Position numbers and translations under genes: made by a program
Assembly (NCBI RefSeq): GCF_022758885.1
Contig: NZ_JALEBH010000001.1
Coordinates: forward strand, 2,449,501-2,513,500
Origin: Sphingobium sp. BYY-5
GTDB taxonomy: Bacteria > Pseudomonadota > Alphaproteobacteria > Sphingomonadales > Sphingomonadaceae
Direction: 5' to 3'
Length of the DNA: 64,000 nucleotides
Part shown: one piece after another, positions 4,193-46,948 of the stretch
How the letters are laid out: each line of letters starts with the position of its first letter
How positions within the stretch are numbered: the stretch's first letter is position 1
Notes under the pieces: generated by a model
Told to the model about the DNA's origin: nothing
Databases searched by the model: none
What the model saw: only the letters and a program-made list of their open reading frames with translations

Positions 4193-5068
4193 CTACCCCA
4201 CGGGCTTGTCTGCCGGCAGTCGCGTCAGATTGTCCGCCGCCGCCTTACCCGCAGGCGAGTCCGGCGAGAGCCTGACCGCCCGCTGCCAGGCGGATCGCGC
4301 CACATCCTCATGATTGGTGAGGATCGCCACATTGCCCTCCTCCAGCGCGACCGAGGCATCATCGGGCGACAATTGCACGGCGCGCGCAATATGTGCCTGC
4401 GCCAGGCTCATCTCGCCCGATCGCCGCGCCAGCGTCGCCGACAGCAGCCAGCCCAGCGGGTCCCTGGGCGCCTGGGTCAGTGCGACATCTAGTGAATCCC
4501 GCGCCGCCGCCATATCGCCCAGCGCCACCAATGCTCGCGCGCGGTCGAGATGCACCTCGCCCTTCTCGAATCCATCGGGCAGGCCGCGCGCCAGCGCCGC
4601 GTCGAAATCGGTACGCGCCTTGGCGGCATCCCCACCGGCCAACGCCGCATTGCCCGCCTGCGCCCAAAGCCGCGCGCCCTGCGCCATTTCACCGCCGCGT
4701 TCGGCCTCCTCCGCCGCCTGCTCGAACGCCACGATAGCGGGCGTCCAGCGCTCGGCGCGCGCATAGGCAAATCCCATACAATGTCGGGCGTAGAAGCTGC
4801 CACCTTCGATCCGCCATTTCTGCGCAAAGGCGACCCCGGCATCAGGCGATGCCATCGCCTGGTCGAGGCAGGCCTGGAAGGGCGCGGCAAATTTCTCGGG
4901 CACGGGAATCCTGCCGTCCTCCCGCGCCGGCACGCTTGCAGCAGCAGCAGGCGCCGTGGTGGCCGCCACTGCCGCCTGCGCCTCCTGCTTCTGCTTGCGG
5001 CTGCGGTTCATCACAGCCTCGATTTCGGGATCATAGGCCTGGAGCAGAAGCGGCAGCAGGAAGGGCAT
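4193..5068 (-). CDS. Tetratricopeptide-repeat protein
   Basis: A 291-residue protein that begins with a short hydrophobic stretch (MPFLLPLLLQAY) and an alanine-rich linker, then carries several TPR-like helical pairs from about residue 85 (GGSFYARHCMGFAYARAERW, ARLWAQAGNAALAGGDAAKA, PLGWLLSATLARRSGEMSLA, ASVALEEGNVAILTNHEDVA). TPRs are protein-interaction scaffolds; the partner is unknown. Its ATG overlaps the stop of the upstream hydrolase gene (ATGA at 5066-5070), which indicates translational coupling. Confidence 0.8.
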   Translation of the reverse strand: MPFLLPLLLQAYDPEIEAVMNRSRKQKQEAQAAVAATTAPAAAASVPAREDGRIPVPEKFAAPFQACLDQAMASPDAGVAFAQKWRIEGGSFYARHCMGFAYARAERWTPAIVAFEQAAEEAERGGEMAQGARLWAQAGNAALAGGDAAKARTDFDAALARGLPDGFEKGEVHLDRARALVALGDMAAARDSLDVALTQAPRDPLGWLLSATLARRSGEMSLAQAHIARAVQLSPDDASVALEEGNVAILTNHEDVARSAWQRAVRLSPDSPAGKAAADNLTRLPADKPVG

Positions 5069-5835
5069 CAGAGGCTGTCCAACAGGGTAGCGACGGTACG
5101 GATCAACAGGGCTATGTCTCCGTCGCGGGAAAGGCGATGGTCGCCGTCCTTAACCAGCAGCGTCTGCACATCGGATGAACGCAACCGCCCGGCGGTTTGC
5201 AGCGCGATCTCCCACGGCACGTCGGGGTCCGCCTGACCATGGAGCAACCGCACCGGACAATCGATCGCGATCTCGCCATCCAGCAGCCGCAACGCCTGCC
5301 CCGACTCCCAAAAGGCCAGCGTCGTCACATAGGGCTGATCGCCATAGGGCGTCGGTTCCTCGATGCGGCCCTCCGTCCGCAGCAACGCCTTGTCCGCATC
5401 GGTGAAGCCCCATTCGGTGAAATCCGGCGCGGCGGCGATGCCGACAAGGCCCACCACCCGCTCCGGCCGCGCCAGCGCGACCAGCAGCGCCAGCCAGCCA
5501 CCCATGGACGACCCGACCAGCAACACCGGCCCCCGCACCACTGCGTCGAGTAGCAGCAGCACGTCGTCGCGCCAGCTTTCCAGCGTGCCATCGGCGAAAC
5601 GCCCGTCGCTCGCGCCATTGCCGGCATAGTCGAGCCGCAGCATCGCTCGCCCCTCACTCTCCGCCCAGCCATGCAGCGCCACCGCCTTCCCTCCCTCCAT
5701 GTCGGACATATAGCCCGGCAGGAAGACCAGCGTCGGCCCCGTCCCTGCGCTATAGCGATAGGCCAGACGCAACCCGTCGGGGCGGGCGAAGAAGGCAGGC
5801 GGAACAGTATCGGCAGGCGTCATGGGCTTTTTCAT
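5068..5835 (-). CDS. Alpha/beta hydrolase
   Basis: A 255-residue serine hydrolase of the alpha/beta fold. The oxyanion region is LVFLPGYMSDM, the nucleophile elbow is VGSSMGG with S110, the acid is probably the Asp in GQADPDVPW, and the histidine lies in DGDHRLS near the C terminus. The substrate cannot be told; related sphingomonad proteins are annotated as carboxylesterases or 2-hydroxymuconic-semialdehyde-hydrolase-like. The start MKKPMTP (5835) was preferred over a longer in-frame extension, but a start 12 bases later is possible. The stop overlaps the start of the TPR gene. Confidence 0.82.
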   Translation of the reverse strand: MKKPMTPADTVPPAFFARPDGLRLAYRYSAGTGPTLVFLPGYMSDMEGGKAVALHGWAESEGRAMLRLDYAGNGASDGRFADGTLESWRDDVLLLLDAVVRGPVLLVGSSMGGWLALLVALARPERVVGLVGIAAAPDFTEWGFTDADKALLRTEGRIEEPTPYGDQPYVTTLAFWESGQALRLLDGEIAIDCPVRLLHGQADPDVPWEIALQTAGRLRSSDVQTLLVKDGDHRLSRDGDIALLIRTVATLLDSL

Positions 5836-5955
5836 ATCCTGGAGGAGATATCGTGCTTCGCCCTTAAACCGGCTTTTCCGCGAAACCCAAAAAATAATGC
5901 GGACCATGCGTTGACAGCCCCCAAGGCACCAGTTAGAGGCGCGCTCCTACCCCGT

Positions 5956-6042
5956 GCCCAGATGGCGGAATTGGTAGACGCACCAGCTTCAGGTGCTGGC
6001 GATCGCAAGGTCGTGGAGGTTCGAGTCCTCTTCTGGGCACCA
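5956..6042 (+). tRNA. tRNA-Leu (anticodon CAG), CCA encoded
   Basis: The acceptor arms GCCCAGA (5956-5962) and TCTGGGC (6032-6038) pair perfectly and are followed by A and an encoded CCA. The anticodon stem CCAGC/GCTGG closes the loop TTCAGGT with anticodon CAG. The long variable arm (GCGATCGCAAGGTCGT region) is typical of a class II tRNA, and the T arm has GGTTCGAGTCC. A P4-type integrase reads away from its 3' end, so this 3' end is the probable attachment site of the adjoining element. Confidence 0.97.
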
Positions 6043-6219
6043 ATACTGGCTCTGGATACGTCCAGGATCGTCCAGTAAGAGGCTGGTTTCACAGCATTTT
6101 TAGACAGAGAATCGCCAGACATCGTCCGGCGAAATCCGGCTAAGAGCACCAGCAGCGACCCCAAAATGTTGCTCTTTTTGGTGCCCTCGGATCGACCCGG
6201 CCTTGCTGGGAAAACGACC

Positions 6220-7308
6220 ATGCTGACGTACATCCAGATCAATGCCGCCAAGCCAAGAACGAAGCCCTGGAGCCTTTCCGATTCCCAAGGCCTCTCCCTC
6301 GTCATTCAACCCAATGGCTCGAAGCTTTGGCGCTTCAAATACCGCTTTTTGGACAAGCAGAAGAATCTGCATCTCGGGGGGTGGCCAACGGTAAGCCTCG
6401 CGGACGCGCGTGTTCGGCGCGACGAAGCCAAGAAGAAGATTGCCGAGGGGATTGATCCGGCGCTGGAGAAAAAGCGCGCGCGGATCGCCGCCAAGTACGC
6501 TGCTGCCAACATCTTCGAGGCGGTTGCCGCGGAATGGCTCGTCAAATGCGAGCGGGACGGTCTGGTGCCGGTGACCGTCGACAAGATCCGCTGGCTTCTT
6601 GCCAAGGCCTATCCCTTGATCGGCACCATCCCGATCGCGCAGATCACGCCGCATGAGGTCCTCGCCGTCCTTCGCAAGATCGAGGCGACCGGCGCCTACG
6701 AGAGTGCGCGGCGCATGCGCAGCGTCCTCAGTCGCGTCTTCCGCTATGGAGTGGCGACGGTTCGCTGCGACAAGGATGTCGCCGCCGACCTTCGGGGCGC
6801 CATCGCCGTGCCCAAAGTGAAGCACTTCGCGGCCATCACGCGACCGTCCGAGGTCGGGGCGCTGCTGCGGGCGATCGACGGCTACAGCGGGCACAAGGTG
6901 ACGGTGATGGCCATGCGCCTGTCGCCGCATGTGCTGCTGCGCCCCGGCGAGCTCAGGCAGGCGGAATGGACCGACATCGATTTCGACGAGGCCATCTGGT
7001 TCATTCCGGCCGAACGCATGAAGATGCGGCGTCCGCACCGCGTGCCCCTGTCACGGCAAGTGATCGCGATGCTCAAGGAACTGCACGAGCACACGCACCG
7101 GTGGAAATACCTGTTCCCGTGCCTCGGCAAGCCGCGCAAGGCGATGTCGGAGAACGCCGTCAACCAGGTCCGGCGTGCCTATGCGCGCGGCGAATATTGG
7201 GATGAACGGGTGCGCATGATGCAGCGCTGGTCGGATTATCTCGACCAATTGCGAGACGGCGGGAAGGTGCTGCGCCCCGACTTCAAAGCGGCACGCCCGA
7301 CCGGTTGA
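6220..7308 (+). pseudogene. P4-type tyrosine integrase with an internal catalytic deletion
   Basis: This 362-residue product has the N-terminal DUF4102 arm-binding domain (SDSQGLSLVIQPNGSKLWRF, LGGWPTVSLADAR), a SAM-like core-binding domain, and the start of the catalytic domain including the first arginine box (VLLRPGELRQAEW). After MSENAVNQ it jumps to VRRAYARGEYWDERVRMMQ at about base 7167. The usual 40-45 residues between these blocks, which hold the HGFR (HxxR) box and the LAH motif, are absent with no frameshift. The tyrosine region is kept. Such a protein should not be able to recombine DNA. Its position just after tRNA-Leu marks the edge of a genomic island. Confidence 0.85.
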
Positions 7309-34600: not shown

Positions 34601-34801
34601 CTACGGCGCGAGGTCGATGTCGCGAGTTACCAGCACGCGCACAGGCGCACCCGGGCGGATGGTGATCGTCGGCTCGATGTCGAGATTGCGTCGCGTGATC
34701 CGGTCGCCGCCGCGGATCGTATTTGATTGCGCGGATTCGCGAAGCGCCTGCACGAGATCGCTCTCGCCCGAGATCGACAGTTCCGACCCAACCCCCAGCA
34801 T
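34601..34801 (-). pseudogene. trbI: trbI 3'-end fragment
   Basis: The 66 residues SGESDLVQALRESAQSNTIRGGDRITRRNLDIEPTITIRPGAPVRVLVTRDIDLAP match the C terminus of TrbI, the VirB10-like scaffold of Trb type IV secretion systems. TrbI is normally over 350 residues; the upstream part is gone, and sequence beyond 34801 belongs to the AbiE operator region. This shows that a conjugation operon once ran through here and was cut at this point. No other trb gene is present. Confidence 0.85.
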
Positions 34802-34877
34802 TTGTTAGAAATCCGCGTCATGTATCTGACAAACTGATTGCGGTTTGTCAGAATTGCGTATACACGCTTCTGACAAA
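34801..34877 (+). promoter_or_regulatory. Probable AbiEi operators: two inverted repeats upstream of abiEi
   Basis: Four copies of an eight-base word alternate in orientation: TTTGTTAG (34801), CTGACAAA (34826), TTTGTCAG (34844) and CTGACAAA (34870). They form two inverted repeats, 34801-34833 (one mismatch) and 34844-34877 (perfect TTTGTCAGAA/TTCTGACAAA). The second ends nine bases before the abiEi ATG. AbiEi proteins are known to repress their own operon by binding paired inverted repeats, so this is the likely autoregulatory site. Confidence 0.75.
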
Positions 34878-34886
34878 GGAATTGCC

Positions 34887-35558
34887 ATGCGCGGGCCGGG
34901 TCTCGATCTCAAAAGTGCCATATCAAGCCGGATGGTCTCCGGAGGCGTGCCTTCAGTCTGGACGCCGCAGGACTTTCTCGATCTCGGCTCTCGCGACGCC
35001 GTCGATCAGGCGCTCCATCGACTGACCCGCAATGGCGACATTCGCAGGATTGCCCGTGGCCTCTATGACAAGCCCAAACTCAACCCCCTCACGGGCAAGT
35101 CCACGCACCCCGATCCGCGCGCCGTCGTCGATGCGCTGGCTCGCCGGGACCAAGCCCGTATCCTCGTCGATGGCGTAACCGCGGCCAACGATCTAGGACT
35201 CTCCGATGCCGTCCCGGCTCGCATCGTCGTCCATACCGATGCAAGATTGAAGCCCATTACGCTCGGCAACCTCAAGATCGATTTCAAAACCACTGCGCCA
35301 AGTCGGCTTCACTGGGCTGGGCGGCCAGCGATGCGTGTCGTTCAGGCCCTGCATTGGTTGCACGACGCCGGGGGCGACACCGATCCGGCTGTTGCCAAGC
35401 GCCTGCGCACCATCTTCGCCCACCCTGATCACGGCGCCGACATCGTCAACGACCTCCAGGCCGATATGCTGACGCTCCCGCTCTGGATGCAGAATATCCT
35501 GCGCGATACGATACCGGTTACCTCGTCAGCTGACCGCCTGAAGACCAAGCGAGCATGA
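34887..35558 (+). CDS. abiEi: Type IV toxin-antitoxin antitoxin AbiEi (DUF6088)
   Basis: A 223-residue protein. The N-terminal winged helix is VWTPQDFLDLGSRDAVDQALHRLTRNGDIRRIARGLYDKPK, as in DUF6088/AbiEi antitoxins; the C-terminal domain has ILVDGVTAANDLGLSDAVPARIVVHTDA. AbiEi represses its own promoter and counters AbiEii. The ATG at 34887 has AAGGA upstream; an upstream in-frame start lies inside the operator and was rejected. Its stop overlaps the toxin start by four bases (ATGA), the usual arrangement of this system. Confidence 0.93.
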   Translation: MRGPGLDLKSAISSRMVSGGVPSVWTPQDFLDLGSRDAVDQALHRLTRNGDIRRIARGLYDKPKLNPLTGKSTHPDPRAVVDALARRDQARILVDGVTAANDLGLSDAVPARIVVHTDARLKPITLGNLKIDFKTTAPSRLHWAGRPAMRVVQALHWLHDAGGDTDPAVAKRLRTIFAHPDHGADIVNDLQADMLTLPLWMQNILRDTIPVTSSADRLKTKRA

Positions 35559-36613
35559 CAATGAACCCCGCTTACGCCCAGTTTCTGGCGGCCGATCCCA
35601 CGGATCGACGGGATGTATTCATCGGCGCCGGGCAGCGGCTCGGCACAGCGCCCCAGAATATCGAGAAGGATTTCTGGGTCTGCTGGACCCTCGACGCGCT
35701 GTTCAACGGTCCGGCATCCCATGGTCCGCGCTTCCTGTTCAAAGGGGGTACGTCGCTGTCGAAGGGCTTCGGCTTGATTCAGCGTTTCTCCGAGGACATC
35801 GACATCACGGTATTTCGCGAAGACATCGGCCAAGATGCAAGTGTCGAGGCGCTGGAGGAGATGTCCGGTAAGAAGCGGCAGGCCAAGCTCGATGCCATCA
35901 AGGCGGCATGCCAAGCCTTCATAGGCGGAGACCTGCTCGCCCAGCTTTCGGAGACCCTAGCCGGTGCAGTTGGCGAGGGCATGGCAGGCGCAAAGGTCGA
36001 ACTCGATCGGGACGATGAAAGCGCCCAGAGCATTCTCCTTTGGTATCCAAGCGTGACCGCCGAGTCCGATGGCTACATCCGCAAAGCCGTCAAAATAGAA
36101 TCCGGGGCCAAATCCGCTCTCGACCCTCATGCCCGCCATAGCGTCGTTCCCTATCTCGCCGATGATCTGCCCGGCCTCGATCTAACGGTCGCCAACGTGA
36201 CCATCGTCGACGCGGAACGGACCTTCTGGGACAAGGTCGTCATTCTCCATGGTCTCCGCCGCTGGTTCGACGCCCGTCAAGTTCTGCGTGCGGGTGGCCA
36301 GCGCGTCTCACGCCATTATTACGACGTGCATCAACTGATGATTGCCGGAACGGGCGCTTCCGCGATGGCTAATGAAGAACTTGGCAGGGATTGTGTCGCG
36401 CACGCTCGAATGTTCTTTAATAGCCGCGACCTTGATCTTGCCCATGCTGAGCCCGGCAGCTTCTCCCTAATGCCGACCGATGCGATGATCGCTGACCTTC
36501 GCCGCGACTATGGTGCCATGGCCGGCATGATCTTCGGCGATGTGCCCGACTTCGATGCCGTCCTCGCAACCGTCGAAACGCTCCAGCGCTCGTTGAACGA
36601 ACCGGCTGCATAA
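35555..36613 (+). CDS. abiEii: Type IV toxin AbiEii, nucleotidyltransferase
   Basis: A 352-residue DUF1814 nucleotidyltransferase. Motif I is KGGTSLSKG (63-71) with the catalytic acidic motif FSEDIDI (D81, D83). Motif IV-like ERTFWDKVVILHGLRRWFD is present near residue 222, and the length is normal. AbiEii toxins arrest growth, and AbiE gives abortive phage infection. In the related MenT toxins the mechanism is addition of nucleotides to tRNA; here it is inferred. The gene is intact and is followed 24 bases later by a resolvase-like palindrome. Confidence 0.93.
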   Translation: MTMNPAYAQFLAADPTDRRDVFIGAGQRLGTAPQNIEKDFWVCWTLDALFNGPASHGPRFLFKGGTSLSKGFGLIQRFSEDIDITVFREDIGQDASVEALEEMSGKKRQAKLDAIKAACQAFIGGDLLAQLSETLAGAVGEGMAGAKVELDRDDESAQSILLWYPSVTAESDGYIRKAVKIESGAKSALDPHARHSVVPYLADDLPGLDLTVANVTIVDAERTFWDKVVILHGLRRWFDARQVLRAGGQRVSRHYYDVHQLMIAGTGASAMANEELGRDCVAHARMFFNSRDLDLAHAEPGSFSLMPTDAMIADLRRDYGAMAGMIFGDVPDFDAVLATVETLQRSLNEPAA

Positions 36614-36636: not shown

Positions 36637-36666
36637 TGTCCGAAATTTGTAGGTGTATTTCGGACA
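36637..36666. repeat. 30-bp palindrome resembling a serine-resolvase crossover site (copy 1)
   Basis: Half-sites TGTCCGAAAT and ATTTCGGACA face each other across a ten-base AT-rich centre. They resemble the TGTCYGATAATTT half-site of Tn3/gamma-delta resolvases. A copy with four differences lies in the same orientation at 46692-46721. Both copies follow an AbiEii gene, and their right flanks share the pattern AGCCG...ACTCG(A/G)ACC...CCGTC.ATTCA. Confidence 0.7.
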
Positions 36667-36998
36667 TGAGCAGCCGGATGCCAAAAGGACTCGAACCATC
36701 CCGTCATTCAGGTGCAAGCTCGTTTACCGGCGTCCAGATACCCAATGATTTGAATGGCATGGCACGGTCCAACGATGACCTTCTGAGGGCATCTCCTTCA
36801 ATACAACAGTCGCCGTGCGCCATCAGCGGTTCGCGGTCGCTTCCGACCCAATGCACGAACGAACGAACATGACGTAATCGCGGGAGCGCCGGCCACGGGC
36901 TAGAGGCACGAGATTACTGGAAGGTTGGTTGCCCCCCGATAAGATGAAGAACGCGCTCACGATTTTGGACCGGGCCCAGCATCAAACGGAGGACAACC
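36667..36998. other. Non-coding region after the palindrome
   Basis: About 330 bases between the palindrome and the IS110 fragment. The first 60 resemble the right flank of the second palindrome. I found no gene. The GGAGGACAACC just before 36999 is the ribosome site of the IS110 transposase fragment. Confidence 0.4.
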
Positions 36999-37325
36999 GT
37001 GGATCAGCATATAGGACTCGATGTCTCCCTAAAAGACACTTCGATATCGGTTCGTCAGGATGGCAAGCGCGTTTGGCGCGGCAAGTGTGCATCCGATCCG
37101 AAGCTGCTTGCCGAAGTGATCCGCAAACGCGCGCCGAATGCAAAACGCGTGGTATTTGAGACCGGACCGTTGTCGGTTTGGTTTTACCATGCGCTCACTG
37201 CGGAGGGTTTAGGCACGATAGATTGCCCTCTTTTTAAGGGGGGCGACAAAGTCCGGCCGCGCACAGGAGGCGCTGGCGGTTGTCCGATCAGCTTGTTTTT
37301 GCTAGTCAAACTTGCTGACCTCTGA
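36999..37325 (+). pseudogene. IS110-family transposase, 5' fragment
   Basis: GTG start after GGAGGACAACC. The first 73 residues (MDQHIGLDVSLKDTSISVRQ, FETGPLSVWFYHALTAEGLG) match the N-terminal DEDD RuvC-like domain of IS110 transposases. Homology stops at about base 37220, and the rest of the frame (IDCPLFKGGDKVRPRTGG) is unrelated. The remaining three quarters of the transposase is missing, so the element is dead. Confidence 0.82.
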
Positions 37326-37992
37326 GGTGGCGCCTGACTCTGCGGCCTCGGCGCGAGTCGAAACTTCCATGCGGATTGGCTCATGGCGCTCGCAGCGCGG
37401 TGACGGCCGTGCGCGCCACACCCCGTGATCAAACGGACGAAGTTCAATTCGATGAGCGGGAAGAAAGATGCGTAACGTTGATGAAATCGATCTCGGTCCC
37501 GTCCGAGCGGCGTCGGCGACCAATCCTTCGCATGCTCGGCCCCCTGGAATGCACGACGCCGCGGAGCATCTCGCCGCGATCGTCGAATCCTCGGATGACG
37601 CCATACTGACGAAGGATCTAAACGGGATCGTTACCAGCTGGAATAACGGAGCGGAACAACTGTTCGGCTATTCCGCGGCAGACATCATCGGAAAGTCGAT
37701 TACGCTTCTTCTGCCCGACGATCGGCAGGACGAGGAAGCGCCGATCCTTGCCCGCTTGCGCCGTGGCGAGCGCGTGCGCCATTATGAAACCGTGAGGCGA
37801 CGCAAGGATGGAGGGCTGGTGGATATCTCGCTCAGCGTTTCGCCGCTGCGCGACGCCACCGGCACGATCATCGGCGCATCCTCGATCGCCCGGGATATCA
37901 CGGAACGCAAACGTGCCGAGGAGCAGCAACAGTTGCTGCTGCGCGAGATGGATCATCGCATTAGGAATCTGTTCACGCTGTCCGCCAGTCTA

Positions 37993-38813
37993 AGGATTGT
38001 GGGGATTTAGGATTCCCATTTAGCGGCAACTGTGCTTCCTGGTGCGGATGGATCGTTTTGTACTGACGGACGCCCAGTGGGCGAAGATGGAACCGCATTG
38101 TCTTGGCAAGATCACCGATCCCGGACGCAGCGGCAGGAACAATCGACTATTCATGGAGGCGGTGCTGTGGATTGTGCGAACGGGCAGTCCTTGGCGCGAC
38201 CTGCCCGCCCAGTTCGGCAACTGGAGTACGGCGTTTCGGCGGTTCCGTGATTGGCGCGAAGCGGATGTTTTCAAGCGGATTTTCGATGCTTTGACGGAGG
38301 AGCCAGACATGGAATACGCCATGATCGATGCGACCATCGTGAAAGTTCACCGGCACGGTCAAGGTGCAAAAGGGGGACTTCGAGCCAGGCCATTGGCCGC
38401 TCCAAAGGCGGCATGACGACCAAGATATTGGCGCTAACCGATGCCTTGGGCAACCTTGTGCGCTTTCGCCTGATGCCGGGCAATCGTTTCGATAGCGTCG
38501 GTGTTGCCCCGCTGATCGAAGGCGTCGAGTTTGGGGCGTTGCTTGCCGACAAAGCTTTCGACAGCAACGACATCATTGCCGATCTCAACGAACGCGGTGC
38601 CAGGATCGTCATCTCTCAGCATCCACGCCGCGCCATACCTATTCGGCTCGACACTGAAATGTATAAATGGCGACACCTGATCGAAAACTTCTTCTGCAAA
38701 CTCAAAGAGTTCAAACGTATCGCCATGCGTGCCTGCAAAACAGACCAAAGCTTCTCAGCAATGATCTATCTCGCTGCCGCCGTCATCAATTCACGATGAA
38801 TCCCCACAACCCT
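37993..38813 (+). mobile_element. IS5-family element (IS427-like), 821 bp, with TA target duplication
   Basis: The ends are AGGATTGTGGGGATT on the left and AATCCCCACAACCCT on the right, an inverted repeat with one mismatch in 15. TA is duplicated at 37991-37992 and 38814-38815. It carries a transposase in two overlapping frames. The target is the histidine-kinase gene, and the sharp ends suggest a recent insertion. Confidence 0.92.
38048..38799 (+). CDS. IS5-family transposase made by -1 frameshift
   Basis: OrfA (38048-38416) starts MDRFVLTDAQWAKMEPHCLG, holds the DUF4096 N-terminal domain and the first catalytic Asp in MIDATIVKVH. OrfB continues in the -1 frame to 38799 with GRSKGGMTTKILALTDALG, the second Asp in LLADKAFDSND, and Glu in HLIENFFCKLKEFKR, completing DDE. 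A run AAAAGGGGG at 38368-38376 is a typical slippery sequence for this group. All catalytic residues are present, so the element may be active. Confidence 0.88.
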
Positions 38814-39564
38814 TAGTGGGCATGAGCGCAGGCGAGACCGGGAGTGTCGAGGAATTGGCGACTATCGTGCAAGATCGACTGGGGGCGTTGGCACGAGCGC
38901 ATGCCTTTACGATATCAAAAACTCCCCTCTCGGGAGCCGGCGAAACCGTTGGGCTGCATGCCCTGCTCGAGACGATCGTCGCTCCTTATCAAATCCGGGC
39001 CGATCACCCTCGCATACGGATCATCGGTGATGACCTCGACCTCGCCGGCGGAGCCGTTACGGCGCTCGCGCTGATCTTCTATGAGCTTGCCACGAATGCC
39101 GCCAAATACGGCGCTTTGACGTCGCCATCGGGTGTCGTCACGATCGAAGCCATCGCGGAAGATGATACCGTTTCGCTGATTTGGAACGAATGTGGAGCGT
39201 TGCTTGATGCAGGGCCGAAGAGGGAGGGCTTCGGAAGCCAGCTCGAACGGCTGGCCACGGTACAACTGGGTGGCCGCATCGAGCGCGAATGGCGGCCGGA
39301 CGGCGTGCGGATCGTCCTGACAATGGCACGCGAGCGCCTTGGCGGACCAAATCTCCTCTGAGTTTCGCCGGCCGTGGCTCAACGCATGGCGGCACGCCCA
39401 ATTCAATGCCGAACTCACCGTCCCCGGGCGCCAGAATCGCTCTATTCCCGCCAATGACCTTGCCGCGCCTATAGAGCGAAGGGCCGATATCAAGCGGTTT
39501 GAGCGGCTGGCCGGATCGTCTTACCGCAGACGGCACGGGGGCGTCGGCCAATCGAAAAATCTCT

Positions 39565-39593
39565 CTTGAAACCGGTTCACTGCTGCCTAAATT
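39565..39593 (+). promoter_or_regulatory. Sigma32-like heat-shock promoter of hsp20 genes
   Basis: CTTG (39565-39568), 17 bases, then CCTAAATT (39586-39593). This fits the alphaproteobacterial RpoH pattern CTTG-N17/18-CYTATNT with one mismatch. It lies about 100 bases before the first hsp20 start. The rest of 39362-39693 contains no gene. Confidence 0.65.
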
Positions 39594-39693
39594 TTCCTCG
39601 CCGGACGCCGAAAACGGGTCTGGTGGACATTGAGAGCGCCGGCTCTCTCCGGCGTGTCTCATGCCCGAATTGCTCAATCAGGAGGATTTGGAA

Positions 39694-40167
39694 ATGAGAA
39701 CTGCATTTGACTTTACACCGTATCGGCGTTCGACGGTTGGTTTTGATCGTCTGTTCAACCTGCTCGAAGCCGGCACGCGCGAAGACGACGGCTATCCGCC
39801 ATTCGACATTCTGAGAGAAGGCGACGACAGCTATCGCATCACGCTGGCGGTCGCCGGCTTCCGCCTCGAGGACATCGAGGTGGTGGCCCAGCAGAACCAG
39901 CTCACCGTCACCGGCAAGCTTGCCGAGAACAACGGTCAGGACGAATATCTGCATCGCGGCATTGCCGCGCGCGCGTTCGAGCGGCGCTTCCAGCTTGCCG
40001 ATTTCGTGGAAGCTGGCGATGCCCGCTTCGAGAACGGCCTGCTGAGCATCGCGCTCAAGCGCGTTGTGCCCGAGGCAATGAAGCCGCGCCGGATCGAGAT
40101 CAGCGGCGGCAAGGCTGCCCAGGATCAGATCGAAGCGCCCAGGGATGAGGCCCGCGAAGCGGCCTGA
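39694..40167 (+). CDS. Small heat-shock protein Hsp20 (IbpA-like)
   Basis: A 157-residue sHSP of the IbpA class: MRTAFDFTPYRRSTVGFDRLFNLLE, then an alpha-crystallin domain from PFDILREGDDSYRITLAVAGF to RFENGLLSIALKRVVPE, and a C-terminal IEI motif (RRIEISGG) for oligomer contacts. It is an ATP-independent holdase that keeps unfolded proteins for refolding by DnaK/GroEL. The ATG at 39694 follows AGGAGG; an upstream in-frame ATG at 39661 has no such site. Downstream of a sigma32-like promoter and upstream of a second Hsp20 gene. Confidence 0.94.
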   Translation: MRTAFDFTPYRRSTVGFDRLFNLLEAGTREDDGYPPFDILREGDDSYRITLAVAGFRLEDIEVVAQQNQLTVTGKLAENNGQDEYLHRGIAARAFERRFQLADFVEAGDARFENGLLSIALKRVVPEAMKPRRIEISGGKAAQDQIEAPRDEAREAA

Positions 40168-40251
40168 TCCTCTGATGCAAAGGTTTGCCGGCGCCGCCCC
40201 CAGCGGGCCGGCAGGCCTTGCCCCTTCCAGTCAGAAAAGGAGATGACCATC

Positions 40252-40773
40252 ATGGCTTTTCGTGATCTCATTCCCTGGAGTCGGCAGGAAAACCGGCTCT
40301 CCGTCCCGGTCAGCGCCGAGCGCGGCCGCGACAGTGATACCCACCCGTTGCTGTCGCTCCACCGCGAGATGAACCGGCTGTTCGACGATGCCTTCCGCGG
40401 CTTCGGCGTGCCCGCATTAGCCGGGTTCGACCGCGCTGCCGGCTGGCCGCATGTCGAGCTCGGCGAGACCGACAAGGAAATCCGCGTCACGGCCGAACTG
40501 CCGGGTCTCGACGAGAAGGACGTCGAAATCACCGTCGAAGACGGGGCGCTGACGCTTCGTGGCGAGAAGCGCTCCGAGGTCGAAGACAAGGATCGTGGCT
40601 ATACCGAGCGCAGCTACGGCCGCTTTGAACGCCGTATCGGACTGCCCCAGGGCATCGACCGTGACCACGCCGCCGCAACCTTCAGGAACGGCGTGCTGAC
40701 GGTCACCCTGCCGAAGACGGAGGCGGCGAACGAAAATGTCCGCCGCATCCCGGTCAATGGCAAGGCGGCCTGA
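40252..40773 (+). CDS. Small heat-shock protein Hsp20 (class A/HspC-like)
   Basis: A 173-residue sHSP of a second type: MAFRDLIPWSRQENR, a mid-region LHREMNRLFDDAFRGFG, and an alpha-crystallin domain WPHVELGETDKEIRVTAELPGLDEKDVEITVEDGALTLRGEKRSE through FRNGVLTVTLPKTE, with a C-terminal RRIPV motif. AAGGAG lies nine bases before the ATG at 40252. It probably forms hetero-oligomers or a tandem holdase system with the preceding protein and shares its promoter. Confidence 0.94.
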   Translation: MAFRDLIPWSRQENRLSVPVSAERGRDSDTHPLLSLHREMNRLFDDAFRGFGVPALAGFDRAAGWPHVELGETDKEIRVTAELPGLDEKDVEITVEDGALTLRGEKRSEVEDKDRGYTERSYGRFERRIGLPQGIDRDHAAATFRNGVLTVTLPKTEAANENVRRIPVNGKAA

Positions 40774-41269
40774 CGATCTGGCCCGGGACTTCGGTTCCGG
40801 GCCATCCGCCAACGATAACCTCACCGGACCAAGCGCGGCGAGCGCGCTACCGCCAGATGCGCGAGCCGTGATCGAGCCGGTGCCGCGCGCGACCAACCAG
40901 GGCGGGCTCGGCGGGCGTGGACAATGGTGGGTGCGCTTCGCGCCGCGCTGGCGGCCCGTGGCCGATCCCCTGACTGGATGGACCGGCGGCGGCGATCTAC
41001 TCGAGACGATCGAGCTGCGCTTTTTAGACGCAGAGACCGCAGCGAGCTACTGCCAGCGCCAGGGATTGGACTTCTCGCTCCATGGCGCGCCGGGTCGCCA
41101 GCATCCGCTTCCCAGTCGCCTGCCAGCGGAACCGACGCCGGTGCTGTGCTGCTGGCCAACAGGTCCGCACGCACGATGCTACGGCCGCTATCCGGCCGCG
41201 CTTGAAAGCGCGCTGGGCTCGGGAAGCGCGGTTGACGTCGGGGGGATGGCATTTTCACATTCACCATGA
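40736..41269 (+). CDS. Stand-alone NDUFS4-like protein (ETC complex I subunit domain)
   Basis: A 177-residue protein. Residues 43-120 (AVIEPVPRATNQGGLGGRGQWWVRFAPRWRPVADPLTGWTGGGDLLETIELRF) match the conserved NDUFS4 region of a supernumerary complex I subunit, including the PLTGWTGGGD loop and ETAASYCQRQGLDF. The C-terminal 55 residues have no clear match. The start overlaps the end of the hsp20 gene by 38 bases; an ATG at 40757 is an alternative. Chromosomal NDUFS4 is normally not in heat-shock operons, so a stress role is possible. Confidence 0.78.
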   Translation: MSAASRSMARRPDDLARDFGSGPSANDNLTGPSAASALPPDARAVIEPVPRATNQGGLGGRGQWWVRFAPRWRPVADPLTGWTGGGDLLETIELRFLDAETAASYCQRQGLDFSLHGAPGRQHPLPSRLPAEPTPVLCCWPTGPHARCYGRYPAALESALGSGSAVDVGGMAFSHSP

Positions 41270-41285
41270 TCAGAGGAGACGATTG

Positions 41286-41834
41286 ATGCGAAAAATTCGT
41301 ACAGCCGTCCTGGCCGGCGTGGCGGCGGTCGCCGCCATCGGTACCGCGCTGGCGGCGAGCCATGGCAGCCATGTTATGAAGGTCGGCCTGCCGGACGGTA
41401 CGGTCGCTCGCATAGAATATGAGGGAGATGTCGCGCCCAAGGTCACGGTCACGCCTGCCTCCAGCGTTGCACCGATCACCTGGCTCGATCCATTCGAGCC
41501 GGCCGCATTCGCGCCGTTCGATCGGATCGTGGCGGACATGGACCCGCAGAGCGACCTGATGATGCGTCAGGTTCGCGCCTTGCCGCTCCCGGCAATGGCC
41601 GATGGCGGGAAGATCGACCTGACGGCGTTGCGCAGCCTGCCTCCGGGGACCGTCAGCTACAGCTTCGTCTCGACGACCAATGGGGGAAGCACCTGCAGCC
41701 GCAGCGTTCAGGTCACCTCGCTTGGCTCGTGGCAGCCACCGAAGGTCGTGTCGCACAACTCCGGTGACTGCCGCGAAGCGCCGCCGGCGGCTGCCGCGCA
41801 CCCGAACCGAACGGACGGAATGCGCCGCACATGA
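41286..41834 (+). CDS. Secreted hypothetical protein
   Basis: A 182-residue protein with a signal peptide (MRKIRTAVLAGVAAVAAIGTALAA). The mature part contains MKVGLPDGTVARIEYEGDVAPKV and a Cys-containing C-terminal segment GGSTCSRSVQVTSLG...NSGDCRE that could form one disulfide. I do not recognise the family. GAGGAG lies before the ATG. It is in the same direction and close to the NDUFS4-like gene, so it belongs to the hsp20 transcript, which ends at the strong terminator at 41887-41914. Confidence 0.75.
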   Translation: MRKIRTAVLAGVAAVAAIGTALAASHGSHVMKVGLPDGTVARIEYEGDVAPKVTVTPASSVAPITWLDPFEPAAFAPFDRIVADMDPQSDLMMRQVRALPLPAMADGGKIDLTALRSLPPGTVSYSFVSTTNGGSTCSRSVQVTSLGSWQPPKVVSHNSGDCREAPPAAAAHPNRTDGMRRT

Positions 41835-41886
41835 CGCAGCCTGCTGTCGGCCATCCCGGCAGCTCATTCAAAGCCACCTGAGTCAT

Positions 41887-41914
41887 AAGGGAGCGGCGTG
41901 TGCGCCGCTCCCTT
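41887..41914 (+). terminator. Rho-independent terminator of the hsp20 operon
   Basis: Perfect 12-bp stem AAGGGAGCGGCG/CGCCGCTCCCTT with the loop TGTG, followed by TTTG. It closes the transcript running from the first hsp20 to the secreted protein, just before marC. Confidence 0.85.
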
Positions 41915-41938
41915 TGCTAGTTTTCCGTTACTTGACCC

Positions 41939-42571
41939 ATGCACATATCACCCAGCATCCTTTCCACCTTTATCACCCTGCTCGTCACCATCGGTCCGAT
42001 CGAGACGGCGGTGGTCTTCGCCGGCCTGACGGCCGGAATTCACCGCAGCGAGCGGATCAGTCTCGCCTCGCGCTCGGTCACGATCGCCGCTGGCGTGCTG
42101 CTGCTGTTCGCTGTTGCGGGCGGCGTCGTTCTTTCGCTCCTGCATATCTCGCTGCCCGCATTCCGGGTGGCAGGCGGCGTGCTCCTGTTCCTTCAGGCTT
42201 TGACGCTCACCTTCTCCAGTCCTGGACTCTCATCCATCAGCGAGGGCGAGCGCCGGGAAGCCGAAGGGTCCGGCGATATCGCGGTCTTCCCGCTGGCGTT
42301 TCCCTTGATCGCGGGCCCCGGAAGCCTTTCGGCCGCCGTGCTCGTCATGGGCCGCACCGAGAACTGGATCGAGGGCGGCAGCGTGCTCGCGATGATCATG
42401 GTTTGTATGCTGTCGACCTGGCTCGCGATGCTCGCGGCCGACCGCCTTGTCCTGCTGCTCGGCAGCACCGGTGCCGACGTCGTCGGCCGCATCTCCGGCG
42501 TGCTTCTCGCCGGCCTCGCCGTCCAGTTCGTCTTCGACGGTCTCGCGGCCGCGCCATTCCTGGCCGGCTGA
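41939..42571 (+). CDS. MarC family membrane protein
   Basis: A 210-residue protein with about six transmembrane helices, starting MHISPSILSTFITLLVTIGPIETAVVFAGLTAG. The PLAFPLIAGPGSLSAAVLVMGR motif is the family signature. MarC proteins were once linked to multidrug resistance, but that role has been disproved and the function is unclear. The gene is on the same strand as the hsp20 set but beyond its terminator, and it is convergent with the small operon ending at 42580. Confidence 0.9.
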   Translation: MHISPSILSTFITLLVTIGPIETAVVFAGLTAGIHRSERISLASRSVTIAAGVLLLFAVAGGVVLSLLHISLPAFRVAGGVLLFLQALTLTFSSPGLSSISEGERREAEGSGDIAVFPLAFPLIAGPGSLSAAVLVMGRTENWIEGGSVLAMIMVCMLSTWLAMLAADRLVLLLGSTGADVVGRISGVLLAGLAVQFVFDGLAAAPFLAG

Positions 42572-42579
42572 ATCAGCCG

Positions 42580-42939
42580 CTATGCGGCCTCGTTGAGCAC
42601 CCGAAGCACCCGGTCCAGCATGGCGGCGTTGGAAGCGGCCTTGGGCAGTTCGCGGCGGGCGAAGCGCTGAAGCGGTGTGAGGTACCGTCGCGGCAGCCGC
42701 AGCGTGATCAGGCTTTGCCCCAACGCATCCCGGGGCACGCGCTGGGCTGCCTTGCCGGAGCGCAGGAAATGATCGTGGAGCCGCTTGCGGTCGGCAAAGG
42801 TCCAGCCCAGCGTCTCAAGCTCATCGGGCGGCACTGACAGCAGCGCGAGCGCGAATTCCATGATGTCGTCGAAGACAAGTACGAGGCGGACTGTCCGTCC
42901 GCCTCGTCGACGCCAGCGCTCGCCAAGACCGCCTGTCAT
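42580..42939 (-). CDS. Hypothetical protein, third gene of the usg operon
   Basis: A 119-residue protein, ATG at 42939 overlapping the usg stop by four bases. It has DDIMEFALALLSVPPDELETLGWTFADRKRLHDHFLRSGKAAQ and RRYLTPLQRFARRELPKAASNAAMLDRVLRVLNEAA, probably an all-helical protein. No domain is recognised. The tight overlap with usg suggests joint function. Confidence 0.7.
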   Translation of the reverse strand: MTGGLGERWRRRGGRTVRLVLVFDDIMEFALALLSVPPDELETLGWTFADRKRLHDHFLRSGKAAQRVPRDALGQSLITLRLPRRYLTPLQRFARRELPKAASNAAMLDRVLRVLNEAA

Positions 42940-43205
42940 GGGAGCGGGATGATGCCATCGACCGTACGCCATTCGGTGGGTCCGATCAGCCGGCCATGGG
43001 CGATCCGGACCGAATGGAGTGCGGCCTCGATCTCGCGCCGCCAATGGTCGAGGAAATCGAACAGCGTTGGGAAGTCGGGCGCAAGATCATATTCCTGCCA
43101 TATGAACAGCTGGAGGAGCGACGGCGCATCGGGCCGGTAATAATGGATCTCGGCTGTGGTGAGACCGTAGCCCTCCAGCTGTGCGATGAAGCCGCGATCA
43201 CTCAT
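42936..43205 (-). CDS. usg: Usg family protein
   Basis: An 89-residue protein of the Usg family, first seen upstream of trp genes in alphaproteobacteria. The family core is [61 protein letters not shown]. Function is unknown. Here it is not near trp genes but between hsp20 and groESL on an accessory segment. It overlaps its neighbours by four bases on both sides. Confidence 0.88.
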
Positions 43206-43438
43206 TGCAGCGGCCGGCCGTCAGTCCGCGGTTCATCGAGCGATCGGATGGCGGCGAAGACCTCGTCGATCGGCACGGCGCGCCTGGCGCCGGGCGGCTT
43301 TCGCATCGCCGGCTGGTCCTTTACCGCAGAGCGGTCGGACGCCCAGGAGGCGAGGATTGCGCGTTTGACTTCGGGCTCCAGGCTTGGATGGTGCGCAACG
43401 TCGAAGGGGTGCAAGAAACGGGAAAATGGCTGCGACAT
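43202..43438 (-). CDS. Small conserved alphaproteobacterial protein
   Basis: A 78-residue protein with [61 protein letters not shown]. This pattern (conserved [11 protein letters not shown] and RAVPIDEV) occurs in many alphaproteobacteria as an uncharacterised small protein. AAAGGAG precedes the ATG. It is the first gene of the usg operon and is divergent from groES. Confidence 0.8.
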
Positions 43439-43567
43439 GGCCGTGGCTCCTTTCCTTGTGTCGCTCCTTTCTCATGCGTGCGGTGCCGCACGCGGCTCAA
43501 GATTTTGGTGCTGATCCGAGTCGCGTCAAGAGGGATGATGTCCGCCAAGTCGCTTAAAAGGGCTGGA

Positions 43568-43594
43568 TTGGCACTCTGCGCGGGCGAGGGCAAA
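43568..43594 (+). promoter_or_regulatory. CIRCE-like element upstream of groES
   Basis: TTGGCACTC, exactly nine bases, then GAGGGCAAA. The HrcA operator CIRCE is TTAGCACTC-N9-GAGTGCTAA, so this site has the right spacing with one mismatch on the left and two on the right. It suggests HrcA repression of this groESL operon. Confidence 0.65.
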
Positions 43595-43611
43595 AAATTT
43601 TCATTCGCCCT

Positions 43612-43640
43612 CTTGAACCCGAAAATCTCTTTTCCTAGTT
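43612..43640 (+). promoter_or_regulatory. Sigma32-like promoter of groESL
   Basis: CTTG (43612-43615), 18 bases, then CCTAGTT (43634-43640), matching CTTG-N17/18-CYTATNT with one mismatch. It lies just downstream of the CIRCE-like site and 69 bases before the groES ATG. Dual HrcA and RpoH control of groESL is known in alphaproteobacteria. Confidence 0.65.
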
Positions 43641-43708
43641 CACGCGAACCTGTCGTTCAGATGAACGGCAGGAACATCACAACCTGTTTTGCATCTGGAG
43701 GTTTTGCC

Positions 43709-44023
43709 ATGCATTTCCGCCCCTTGCACGACCGTGTGGTCGTCCGCCGCATCGAAGCCGAGGAGAAGACCTCGGGCGGCATCATCATCCCCGACACCGC
43801 CAAGGAAAAGCCGCAGGAGGGCGAGATCGTCGCCGTCGGCCCGGGTGTCCGCGACGATAGCGGCCAGCTCGTCGAGCTGTCCGTCAAGTCCGGCGACCGC
43901 ATCTTGTTCGGCAAATGGTCGGGCACCGAGGTCAAGATCGACGGCGAGGATCTGCTCATCATGAAGGAGAGCGATATCCTCGGCGTGATCGACAATGTCG
44001 TGCCTCTCAAGCAGGCGGCCTGA
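43709..44023 (+). CDS. groES: Co-chaperonin GroES
   Basis: A 104-residue Gro[48 protein letters not shown] holds the mobile loop ([12 protein letters not shown]) that binds GroEL, and the chain ends ESDILGVID. It caps the GroEL cage during assisted folding. The ATG follows GGAGG. A frame running in from 43205 is a longer artefact without a start at the right place. GroEL follows 55 bases later in one operon. Confidence 0.97.
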
Positions 44024-44063
44024 TCGACCGCCCTTATCCCTCGAACATTCAGGAAGGATATAG

Positions 44064-45698
<1,635 letters not shown>

Positions 45699-45704
45699 TT
45701 GGGT

Positions 45705-45736
45705 GGGAGGCCGGGCGCACCGGCCTCCCGTCTTTT
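45705..45736 (+). terminator. Rho-independent terminator of groESL
   Basis: Stem GGGAGGCCGG/CCGGCCTCCC, loop GCGCA, then GTCTTTT. It starts six bases after the groEL stop. Confidence 0.9.
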
Positions 45737-45883
45737 CCGACATGCGCCTGTTCTCGATGTTTCGATAGCGCAGTTGCCGCGCAACTTCGACGCAGGTCGG
45801 ATTGCCTGTTTGTGCTTTAAGGAAGCGGCCCAATTGGACGTTAGAGGTGAACTGGGCAGCCGCGTGGCGCCTTCAAGCGCCCG

Positions 45884-46483
45884 ATGGAGACGGTGACCTG
45901 GCAGGGCGCGCTGTACAGCCTGCAGGCTCAGTTGCGACTACCCGTCCATGTCGGAGCGCTGATCGCACTCGAGATGTCGGGGAACAGCCATTATGTCCGG
46001 TTCGCCAAAACCAAGGCGTATTTGTTCTCGCCGCTCAACGTCGCGCTGCCGCTCTGGTTCAGAACCCATTGGGGAGATGACGTGCGGCATGTCCGAACCA
46101 AGCTATTGCCTCCGGAACTCGGACTGACAGAGCAGCAGGCACCCGAGGGCTTTGCGTTGAAGACATCTGGCGTCGAACGCGCTGCCTCGGAATTGCTACA
46201 TCTCGCACCGAAGGAATTCGACCTGTTCGAGGCCGGGATGATCATCGAGAGCATGACCTCCATACGGCCAAAGCTCATGCAAAGCCTGCTGGAGCAATGC
46301 ACCTCGATCAAGGTGCGAAGGCTGTTCCTCCACCTTGCGGAGCGCGCCAACCTGCCGGTGGCGCGGCATCTTGATCTTGACCGGATCGATCTGGGGACGG
46401 GGGATCGCAGCCTCGTGCCGAACGGGCGCTATGTCGCAAAATATCAGCTTCTGCTTCCCAAGGAACTGGTCGATCGTGGCTGA
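45884..46483 (+). pseudogene. AbiEi-family antitoxin of a second AbiE pair, N terminus lost
   Basis: The 199 residues beginning METVTWQGALYSLQAQLRLPVHVGALIALEMSG and ending KYQLLLPKELVD match the C-terminal domain of the larger AbiEi family (AbiEi_3 type), with ERAASELLHLAPKEFDLFEAGMII and RRLFLHLAERANLPVARHLDL. In-frame upstream codons read RGAFKRP, the end of the expected winged helix, then meet a stop near 45855. The N-terminal DNA-binding part of about 50 residues is thus missing or frameshifted, so the gene may not repress. It overlaps the next gene. Confidence 0.78.
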
Positions 46484-46808
46484 GCCTTATGGCGACCAAG
46501 TTCGGCTGCTCCTCGATATTCTGGTGATGGCGGAACCGGCCTTCGCGCTTAAGGGCGGGACCGCCATCAACCTCTTCGAATGGAACCTGCCGCGCCTGTC
46601 GGCGGATATCGACCTTACCTATCTGCCAAACCACGACCGCAAGGAGTCGCTCGGTGCGATTGGCAAGGCGTTGGCGCGAATACCTGCCGGCTGTCCGAAA
46701 ATTGTACGTAAATTTCGGACACAAACTCCAGCCGTTCGCTGCCTGGAAGAACTCGGACCGCGCCGTCCATTCACATCCAGTCTTTTCCATGAATCCAGAT
46801 CGTGCTAA
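46476..46808 (+). pseudogene. AbiEii nucleotidyltransferase toxin, truncated at the recombination site
   Basis: GTG start overlapping the antitoxin gene. The first 71 residues have the nucleotidyltransferase motifs LKGGTAINLFEW and SADIDLTYLP of AbiEii. At base 46691 the frame enters the second resolvase-like palindrome and continues with unrelated residues (GCPKIVRKFRTQTPAVRC) to a stop. At least 200 C-terminal residues are lost, so the toxin is dead. The break coincides exactly with the palindrome. Confidence 0.85.
46692..46721. repeat. 30-bp palindrome resembling a serine-resolvase crossover site (copy 2)
   Basis: Half-sites TGTCCGAAAA and ATTTCGGACA around TTGTACGTAA. It differs from copy 1 at 36637 by four bases and lies in the same orientation, so recombination between them would excise about 10 kb. 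It cuts the second AbiEii gene. Confidence 0.7.
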
Positions 46809-46948
46809 TGATGCCCTTGGCAAATTCGTAAGTCTATGATTTAGCTGCGAAATCAACCGCTTAGCTGTCCAGCAATCAAGCTCTTCTGGCACCATTTTAC
46901 CCTTCCGATCATATTCGGTGATGGCCGATTTTCCAGTGCGAAAATCGC

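Follow-up and report, generated by a model that had tools for sequence, protein, structure and literature searches.

Mobile heat tolerance has been described as a ClpG-based locus of chiefly beta- and gammaproteobacteria, parts of which also occur in some alphaproteobacteria (PMC8290217). According to the available text of the same source (PMC8290217), this transmissible locus of stress tolerance (tLST), also known as the locus of heat resistance (LHR) or the transmissible locus for protein quality control (TLPQC), has the core dna-hsp20-clpG, and some alphaproteobacteria carry mostly its protein homeostasis part. The AbiEi proteins of AbiE toxin-antitoxin systems are described as binding inverted repeats of their own promoters (PMC7319586). 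The DNA analysed here, a 64,000-nucleotide stretch of Sphingobium sp. BYY-5 (contig NZ_JALEBH010000001.1, positions 2,449,501 to 2,513,500; hereafter the window), contains a proteostasis cassette with two Hsp20 genes and a groES-groEL pair, lying between two 30-bp palindromes. The initial annotation had read these palindromes as resolvase-like sites bounding a 10-kb mobile stress-tolerance locus. The mobile proteostasis cassette is real, as plasmid copies, patchy occurrence and its place in a tRNA-associated array indicate, but its boundaries and mechanism differ from that reading, and resolvase sites bounding it are not supported.

We consider it likely that positions 6043-46894 form a composite genomic island of ~40.9 kb in the 3' end of a tRNA-Leu(CAG) gene, with palindrome-bearing right ends and a mobile chaperone cassette as part of its cargo. 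A P4-type tyrosine integrase gene follows the tRNA, whose 3' end is repeated at 46881-46894, one G short of the tRNA copy. A comparison of the 30 best-matching loci from 94 genomes took in 28 relatives, the host and one cut-off locus; in 21 of the 28 relatives, a related integrase (40-92% identity) lies at most 1.4 kb behind the same tRNA. In G338 (L252), DNA matching window positions 4212-6042 and the extended coordinates 87061-88192 stand 193 bp apart, and in G322 (L250) the same two flanks are separated by 381 bp that include a second tRNA-Leu; tRNA-Ser(GCT) is the right-side marker in both and in the host. Because these flanks are nearly adjacent, about 81 kb has been accreted in the host, and the window shows the left part. 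The insertion-free sites document this whole 81-kb array, not the 40.9-kb island alone, which would be one part of the array accreted at tRNA-Leu. In the checked part of the array to the right of the window there are genes for an IS110 transposase and a serine resolvase, as well as an IS3-type transposase recognized by eye. Excision of the cassette by recombination between the palindromes, as first proposed, is not borne out; the mobile boundary seen is the attachment (att) pair of tRNA-Leu with its tyrosine integrase. Compared with the integrases of two relatives (L267 and L258), the window enzyme is shorter by about 47 residues including the HxxR box, and therefore the island probably cannot move unaided; the integrase is probably dead, and movement would need help from elsewhere.

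The two palindromes share 87% identity and the same orientation. Their spacing of 10,055 bp, given in the initial annotation, was confirmed. With up to three mismatches allowed, the window has no matches other than these two, against 0.04 expected, and none of 100 shuffles produced two; exact matches of the 30-bp form occur genome-wide only as these two copies. Both had been said to follow an AbiEii gene. This holds for palindrome 1, located 23 bp behind an intact DUF6088/AbiEii pair (AbiE-A), whereas palindrome 2 interrupts an AbiEi_3/AbiEii pair (AbiE-B), in which the AbiEii match is confined to positions 10-64 of the 238 in the profile. A module made up of palindrome, tail and att core terminates many islands of this family, and two right ends in tandem would explain two direct palindromes around cargo. 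By alignment, positions 46692-46894 show such a right end, a module of ~200 bp kept across islands integrating at tRNA-Leu(CAG), with the palindrome about 160 bp from att. At the far end, the direct sequence CTCTTCTGG(G)CACCA is found in full in the window, G067, L035, G155, G280 and L076; L117 and L064 have only part of it. The 120-bp right flanks of seven tail-side palindromes (window second, G067B, L035, L117, L064, G155 and G280) share 78-90% identity in 21 of 21 pairs, while their left flanks exceed the random 95th percentile (63) in 3 of 21 (L035/L064, 87%; L117/L064, 65%; L035/L117, 64%). In the window, L107 and G144, the palindromes on the AbiE side are alike in both flanks (88-98%), and their right flanks are 62-69% like the tail-side ones. 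A first right end at 36637-36799 is probable: a blastn match runs ~50 bp beyond palindrome 1 (79% to L035, E 5e-13 including the palindrome), and no direct att core was found in this module.

Near the palindrome, the tail contains an inverted tRNA-Leu 3' end, which scored above all 200 shuffles at 9 of the 12 palindromes examined; those not above the shuffles were the second one of the window, that of L076 and the AbiE-side one of G067. The tail was also considered as a known RNA: no Rfam family reached the gathering threshold, with a single match at the level of chance, and no intact tRNA or tmRNA was present. The combination of tRNA-Leu, integrase, cargo and tail was found in G067, G280 and G164. 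A second integrase follows the att core in 5 of 13 sequences scanned (L107, L076, L035, G144 and G133), as expected, because tandem accretion would give this arrangement. The layout of G067 is that of the window, with integrase, AbiE-A, palindrome, other cargo, palindrome, tail and att in this order. The sister bay of G067 (L197:8184-16775) holds VIT1, NADPH-FMN reductase, SBF symporter, TauE, rhodanese and metallo-beta-lactamase-fold genes, which we read as cargo of an arsenic/sulfur type. Elsewhere in the host genome, on its second contig (C2:917627-932800, L217), there is a second AbiE-A copy (99.65% DNA identity over 1,143 bp) with a cut AbiEii; it forms a fusion with the first 34 or so codons of the same integrase, and a tail lies 14 kb away.

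Several observations weigh against the island interpretation or parts of it. With two mismatches allowed, 0.32 chance matches to the att core at 46881-46894 are expected, and in alignment this core only ties with the highest-scoring of 200 shuffles. G155 and G280 were picked by tail similarity, so the right-flank agreement is partly by construction and for these two only the palindrome, as opposed to the tail, counts as an independent finding. The right flank of palindrome 1 is only 62-69% like the tail-side flanks (random 95th percentile, 63), and because of this value together with the blastn extension we regard it as a right end that is degraded and no more than probable. In G067, the palindrome on the AbiE side lacks any tail or flank of the tail-side type, the L076 tail begins 199 bp from its palindrome, and the palindrome is missing beside 6 of 14 tails. 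The region from the integrase to AbiE-A (7309-34800, ~27.5-27.7 kb), with mainly metabolic and regulator genes, is not accounted for. No island compared carries the cassette between integrase and tail: it was not seen in G067, G155, G280, G011, G133, G164, L107, L076, L035, L117, L064 or the C2 copy of the host, a comparison covering only 8 kb for several of these islands. In G144 (L222, L215; G144:C1:2874501-2914500), a more distant cassette is found at 21-29 kb from AbiE-A and from two tails; its array has no tRNA in the 120 kb examined, and in this genome the core gene that belongs to the tRNA-Leu locus maps to 0.15 Mb.

The distribution of the cassette among sequenced replicons shows that it moves between them on plasmids and islands. 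The conjugative Novosphingobium plasmid pHR1a carries it at 92.2% DNA identity over 6.1 kb. Homology is continuous over 39510-45735 with pHR1a (91.7%) and over 39326-45776 with G379 (90.0%); it stops 2.7-2.8 kb and 0.9-1.0 kb inside the two palindromes, outlining a mobile block at ~39.5-45.7 kb. No repeats were seen bounding the cassette itself, and a PAS/HWE kinase gene farther upstream recurs in G305 and weakly in pHR1a. In the plasmid search, which also returned further sphingomonad plasmids, 2466 records match some part of the query and 2 cover more than 80% of it; usg alone is present in 138 plasmid records, many of them rhizobial and not all with the gene beside groEL. Among the 94 genus genomes (all comparisons used one genome per species), Hsp20-2 has matches at E 1e-10 in 43 and nearly full-length matches of at least 74% identity in 24 including the host. 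The four genomes closest to the host in the core gene next to the tRNA (G339, G338 and G333, 87%; G322, 86%) have no Hsp20-2 or only a 46-55% paralog, and G305 shows 73% for the core gene and 94% for Hsp20-2. Cassette and core-gene identities are uncorrelated (rho 0.25, p 0.25, n=23 genomes).

A complete set of the genes for Hsp20-1, Hsp20-2, Usg, GroES and GroEL is found in 15 of the 16 stretches from the genus (12 genomes), in 3 of 3 plasmid stretches and in G144, and G368 has it in part. The NDUFS4-like gene occurs in 16 of the 20 other cassettes and MarC in only four (G379, G196, pHR1a and, at 47%, pKN1). In the stretches examined around 19 of these 20 cassettes, the palindrome was not found with up to two mismatches; G144, the twentieth, has two palindromes 24-26 kb away. 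The gene order is kept in relatives without the palindromes, which the initial annotation had named, for core genes, as speaking against its reading, but the genes are accessory. In a 16-row GroEL tree with 6 of its 12 inner branches unresolved, the window protein forms a clade with those of pHR1a, pKN1 and G379 (support 99/97), apart from the two other GroELs of the host. Transfer would proceed via integrase islands and conjugative plasmids rather than by resolvase action at the palindromes, with the cassette perhaps spread by conjugative plasmids and then captured by islands.

The chaperone genes and their control elements are listed in Table 1 together with the island features. Pfam returned the gene content first described for this segment (AbiEii, two Hsp20, NDUS4, MarC, Cpn60, Cpn10 and Usg). 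The prediction that each chaperone block has its own heat-shock promoter was upheld as well: an RpoH-like motif stands upstream of both, in addition to a ROSE (repression of heat shock gene expression) thermometer and a CIRCE (controlling inverted repeat of chaperone expression)-like site. The promoter calls used CTTG-N17/18-CYTA, which we take to be the RpoH-like consensus. This motif precedes groES in 18 of 19 cassettes and Hsp20-1 in 8 of 20, versus 0.9% of 2000 random 300-bp window pieces, and a CIRCE-like site (up to four mismatches) precedes groES in 18 of 19; upstream of groES, the RpoH-like motif is missing in G379 and the CIRCE-like site in G196. ROSE was found in 14 of 14 cassettes examined, a check that took in 13 of the 20 selected cassette loci. 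In the window, AGGAGGA and the AUG at 39694 are paired within its last hairpin. In a G305 cassette, an Rfam terC motif (L320:10958-11017) is located on the other strand, directly upstream of where ROSE-Hsp20 begins. Heat would open ROSE, and RpoH would raise Hsp20 and GroESL; the Hsp20s would hold unfolding proteins and GroESL would refold them. The bay cargo, with its ROSE-controlled Hsp20 pair, NDUFS4-like protein, MarC, usg and RpoH/CIRCE-type groESL, presumably adds heat-inducible folding capacity.

Table 1. Features of the tRNA-Leu(CAG) island and its chaperone cassette in the window
Feature	Coordinates	Strand	Basis
tRNA-Leu(CAG), integration target; last 15 bases (6028-6042, CTCTTCTGGGCACCA) = attL core	5956..6042	+	
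P4-type tyrosine integrase: Arm-DNA-bind_3, Phage_int_M, Phage_integrase (positions 4-118 of 172)	6166..7308	+	Pfam
Tandem operator-like palindromes (TTTGTTAGAA.., TTTGTCAGAA..) before AbiEi-A, 43 bp apart	34801..34877	+	
AbiE-A toxin-antitoxin pair, intact: DUF6088/AbiEi (open reading frame (ORF) 34845-35558), AbiEii (35555-36613)	34845..36613	+	Pfam
Palindrome 1, TGTCCGAAA-N12-TTTCGGACA	36637-36666	+	sequence scan
Probable degraded right-end module: palindrome 36637-36666, ~50-bp tail similarity, inverted tRNA-Leu 3' end	36637..36799	+	
PAS and HWE kinase pieces (37468-38010, 38816-39361), DDE transposase fragment between (38251-38799)	37468..39361	+	Pfam
RpoH-like promoter CTTG-N17-CCTA	39565..39589	+	motif
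ROSE RNA thermometer	39601..39700	+	Rfam RF00435, fold
Hsp20-1, start set by ROSE fold; ORF opens at 39661	39694..40167	+	Pfam
Hsp20-2	40243..40773	+	Pfam
NDUFS4-like protein (Pfam NDUS4)	40736..41269	+	
ORF without Pfam match, recurs in some cassettes	41082..41834	+	
MarC family membrane protein	41939..42571	+	Pfam
usg operon: small protein, Usg (42936-43205), small protein	42580..43438	-	Pfam
CIRCE-like site, 3 mismatches, degenerate 3' half	43568..43594	+	
RpoH-like promoter of groES	43612..43637	+	motif
groES (Cpn10)	43709..44023	+	Pfam
groEL (Cpn60), third, divergent copy in genome; 76-77% to other two	44079..45698	+	
AbiEi-B, AbiEi_3 type	45884..46483	+	Pfam
AbiEii-B 5' fragment ending at palindrome 2	46467..46690	+	Pfam
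Palindrome 2, TGTCCGAAA-N12-TTTCGGACA	46692-46721	+	sequence scan
Right-end module: palindrome 46692-46721, conserved tail, attR core 46881-46894	46692..46894	+	alignment

The motif was found in at least 116 stretches of genome contigs, in 49 stretches of viral contigs and in 12 of 298 family genomes, and profiles of AbiEi and AbiEii were built from the palindrome loci themselves; some sites were counted under two locus ids, and the locus counts given here hold among the matches listed. Among loci of the 30-bp form, AbiEi starts right behind the palindrome in 36 of 93, and among those of the 29-bp form in 19 of 50; together these are 55 of 143, against 0 of 39 for other lengths. Because of this position and the binding of AbiEi to inverted repeats of its promoter, we regard the motif as an AbiEi-operator-type sequence in these 55 loci. 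A resolvase crossover site, at which recombination would delete or mobilise the 10-kb segment, is accordingly very unlikely, in spite of the direct orientation of the palindromes and the coincidence of several homology breaks with their left edges. A relative of the L061 serine recombinase, the one recombinase query used, was found at 3 of the 93 30-bp loci, two of which also have AbiE, and at seven places among the 26-, 31- and 33-bp forms. In Burkholderia (L031, L061 and L074), the TGTCCGAAA half-site at these three total lengths adjoins serine recombinases, which lends the resolvase interpretation some support, but these forms are a different site class. None of the six PF00239 serine recombinase genes of the host genome has the half-site within 25 kb. 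A serine resolvase gene of the same accreted array (L335:17906-18505) lies 27 kb to the right of palindrome 2, a point in favour of resolvase action, with no TGTCCGAAA beside it. In other genomes the palindrome stands at unrelated places without a recombinase link, and the 19 other cassettes lacking it in the sequence examined likewise speak against crossover sites. Working operators bound by DUF6088 AbiEi, which would make the island ends AbiE-controlled or relics of lost AbiE operons, are a serious possibility, to which we give somewhat less than even chances. It agrees with the 29/30-bp counts, with PMC7319586 as far as its available text goes, and with the presence of AbiEi at all 12 listed loci (7 distinct sites) in which two 30-bp palindromes stand 42-46 bp apart. 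However, the AbiE-A operators of the window carry another half-site, TGTCAGAA, and no AbiEi gene starts directly behind either window palindrome, both of which stand behind or within AbiEii genes. Furthermore, AbiE genes were not found in the flanking sequence examined at 82 of the 143 loci, including 42 of 44 in viral contigs (L146, L149, L157, L172, L174, L176, L177 and others), where the palindromes are possible decoys or phage regulators. Orphan palindromes were also observed at five family loci (L010, L011, L013, L015 and L019).

An arm site of the island attP for integrase or excisionase would fit a palindrome that opens a conserved module about 160 bp away from att, but it is absent at the 6 tails mentioned above and present at AbiEi starts and other places without an island end, so that we find this role rather unlikely. 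The palindromes are probably AbiEi-type operator sequences retained in island ends. As regards the cassette, it could be argued that the chaperone block belongs to the ancestral chromosome and that islands gathered around it, given that the order Hsp20-Hsp20-usg-groES-groEL is kept in nearly all genus stretches. This is extremely unlikely in view of its presence in only 24 of 94 genomes, the lack of more than a distant paralog in the four nearest ones, the 92% plasmid copy in another genus, and the absence of the whole 81 kb between the core flanks of G338 and G322.

Three homology edges coincide with operator-type palindromes: 34800 (versus the C2 copy of the host, L107 and L076), 36634 (versus L076) and 46691 (versus L035, L117 and L064). 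We put forward, tentatively and with more doubt than confidence, a combined proposal: an alphaproteobacterial transmissible stress locus, built on a complete GroES-GroEL and a ROSE-Hsp20 pair and not on ClpG, would travel on conjugative plasmids and tRNA-Leu islands, and the AbiEi-operator-type palindrome at island ends would be a repeated junction of cargo modules, a DNA site of the antitoxin thus doubling as a joining point. Against such a junction, the match to L062 starts at 46675, the window and L107 agree on both sides of palindrome 1, and L107 and G144 share sequence to the left of 34800. The breaks at palindrome edges may reflect only a conserved operator or end module with unconserved sequence outside. 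No published account of this cassette or of these island ends was recognised in the open-access literature, as judged from the starts of abstracts and with subscription journals mostly outside this scope.

If this interpretation is correct, mobile heat tolerance would have another solution in a GroESL-based cassette that brings its own RNA thermometer and moves on plasmids and islands of sphingomonads. Sphingomonads are used for pollutant breakdown, and a role of a spare chaperonin in buffering heat or newly acquired enzymes would become testable. Like tLST/LHR/TLPQC as presented in PMC8290217, the locus consists of horizontally moved proteostasis genes with xenologous heat shock proteins and flanking mobile elements, and horizontally moved hsp20, a trait of these loci, is present in it. 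In contrast to tLST, it combines a full GroES-GroEL pair with usg, MarC and an NDUFS4-like protein and has no Clp ATPase, in agreement with the distinction from the locus of heat resistance made at the outset; ClpB_D2-small was not found in the array, and the four matches in the genome are at C1 0.64, 1.27, 1.59 and 2.62 Mb. The word "groEL" is missing from the text of the tLST paper (PMC8290217). As in ROSE-controlled small heat shock operons (RF00435), the thermometer is located at the first Hsp20 gene, but here ROSE-Hsp20 is joined to groESL in one mobile unit. The island shares with tRNA-integrated P4-type islands the tRNA 3' target, adjacent integrase, distal att, tandem accretion and variable cargo, and differs from them in a right-end module with an AbiE-operator-like palindrome and inverted tRNA 3' end as well as in an integrase without the HxxR box. 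Finally, the palindromes resemble the operators of AbiE type IV toxin-antitoxin systems in being inverted repeats of the kind found at AbiEi starts; unlike those operators, they stand behind or within AbiEii genes, at the ends of islands.

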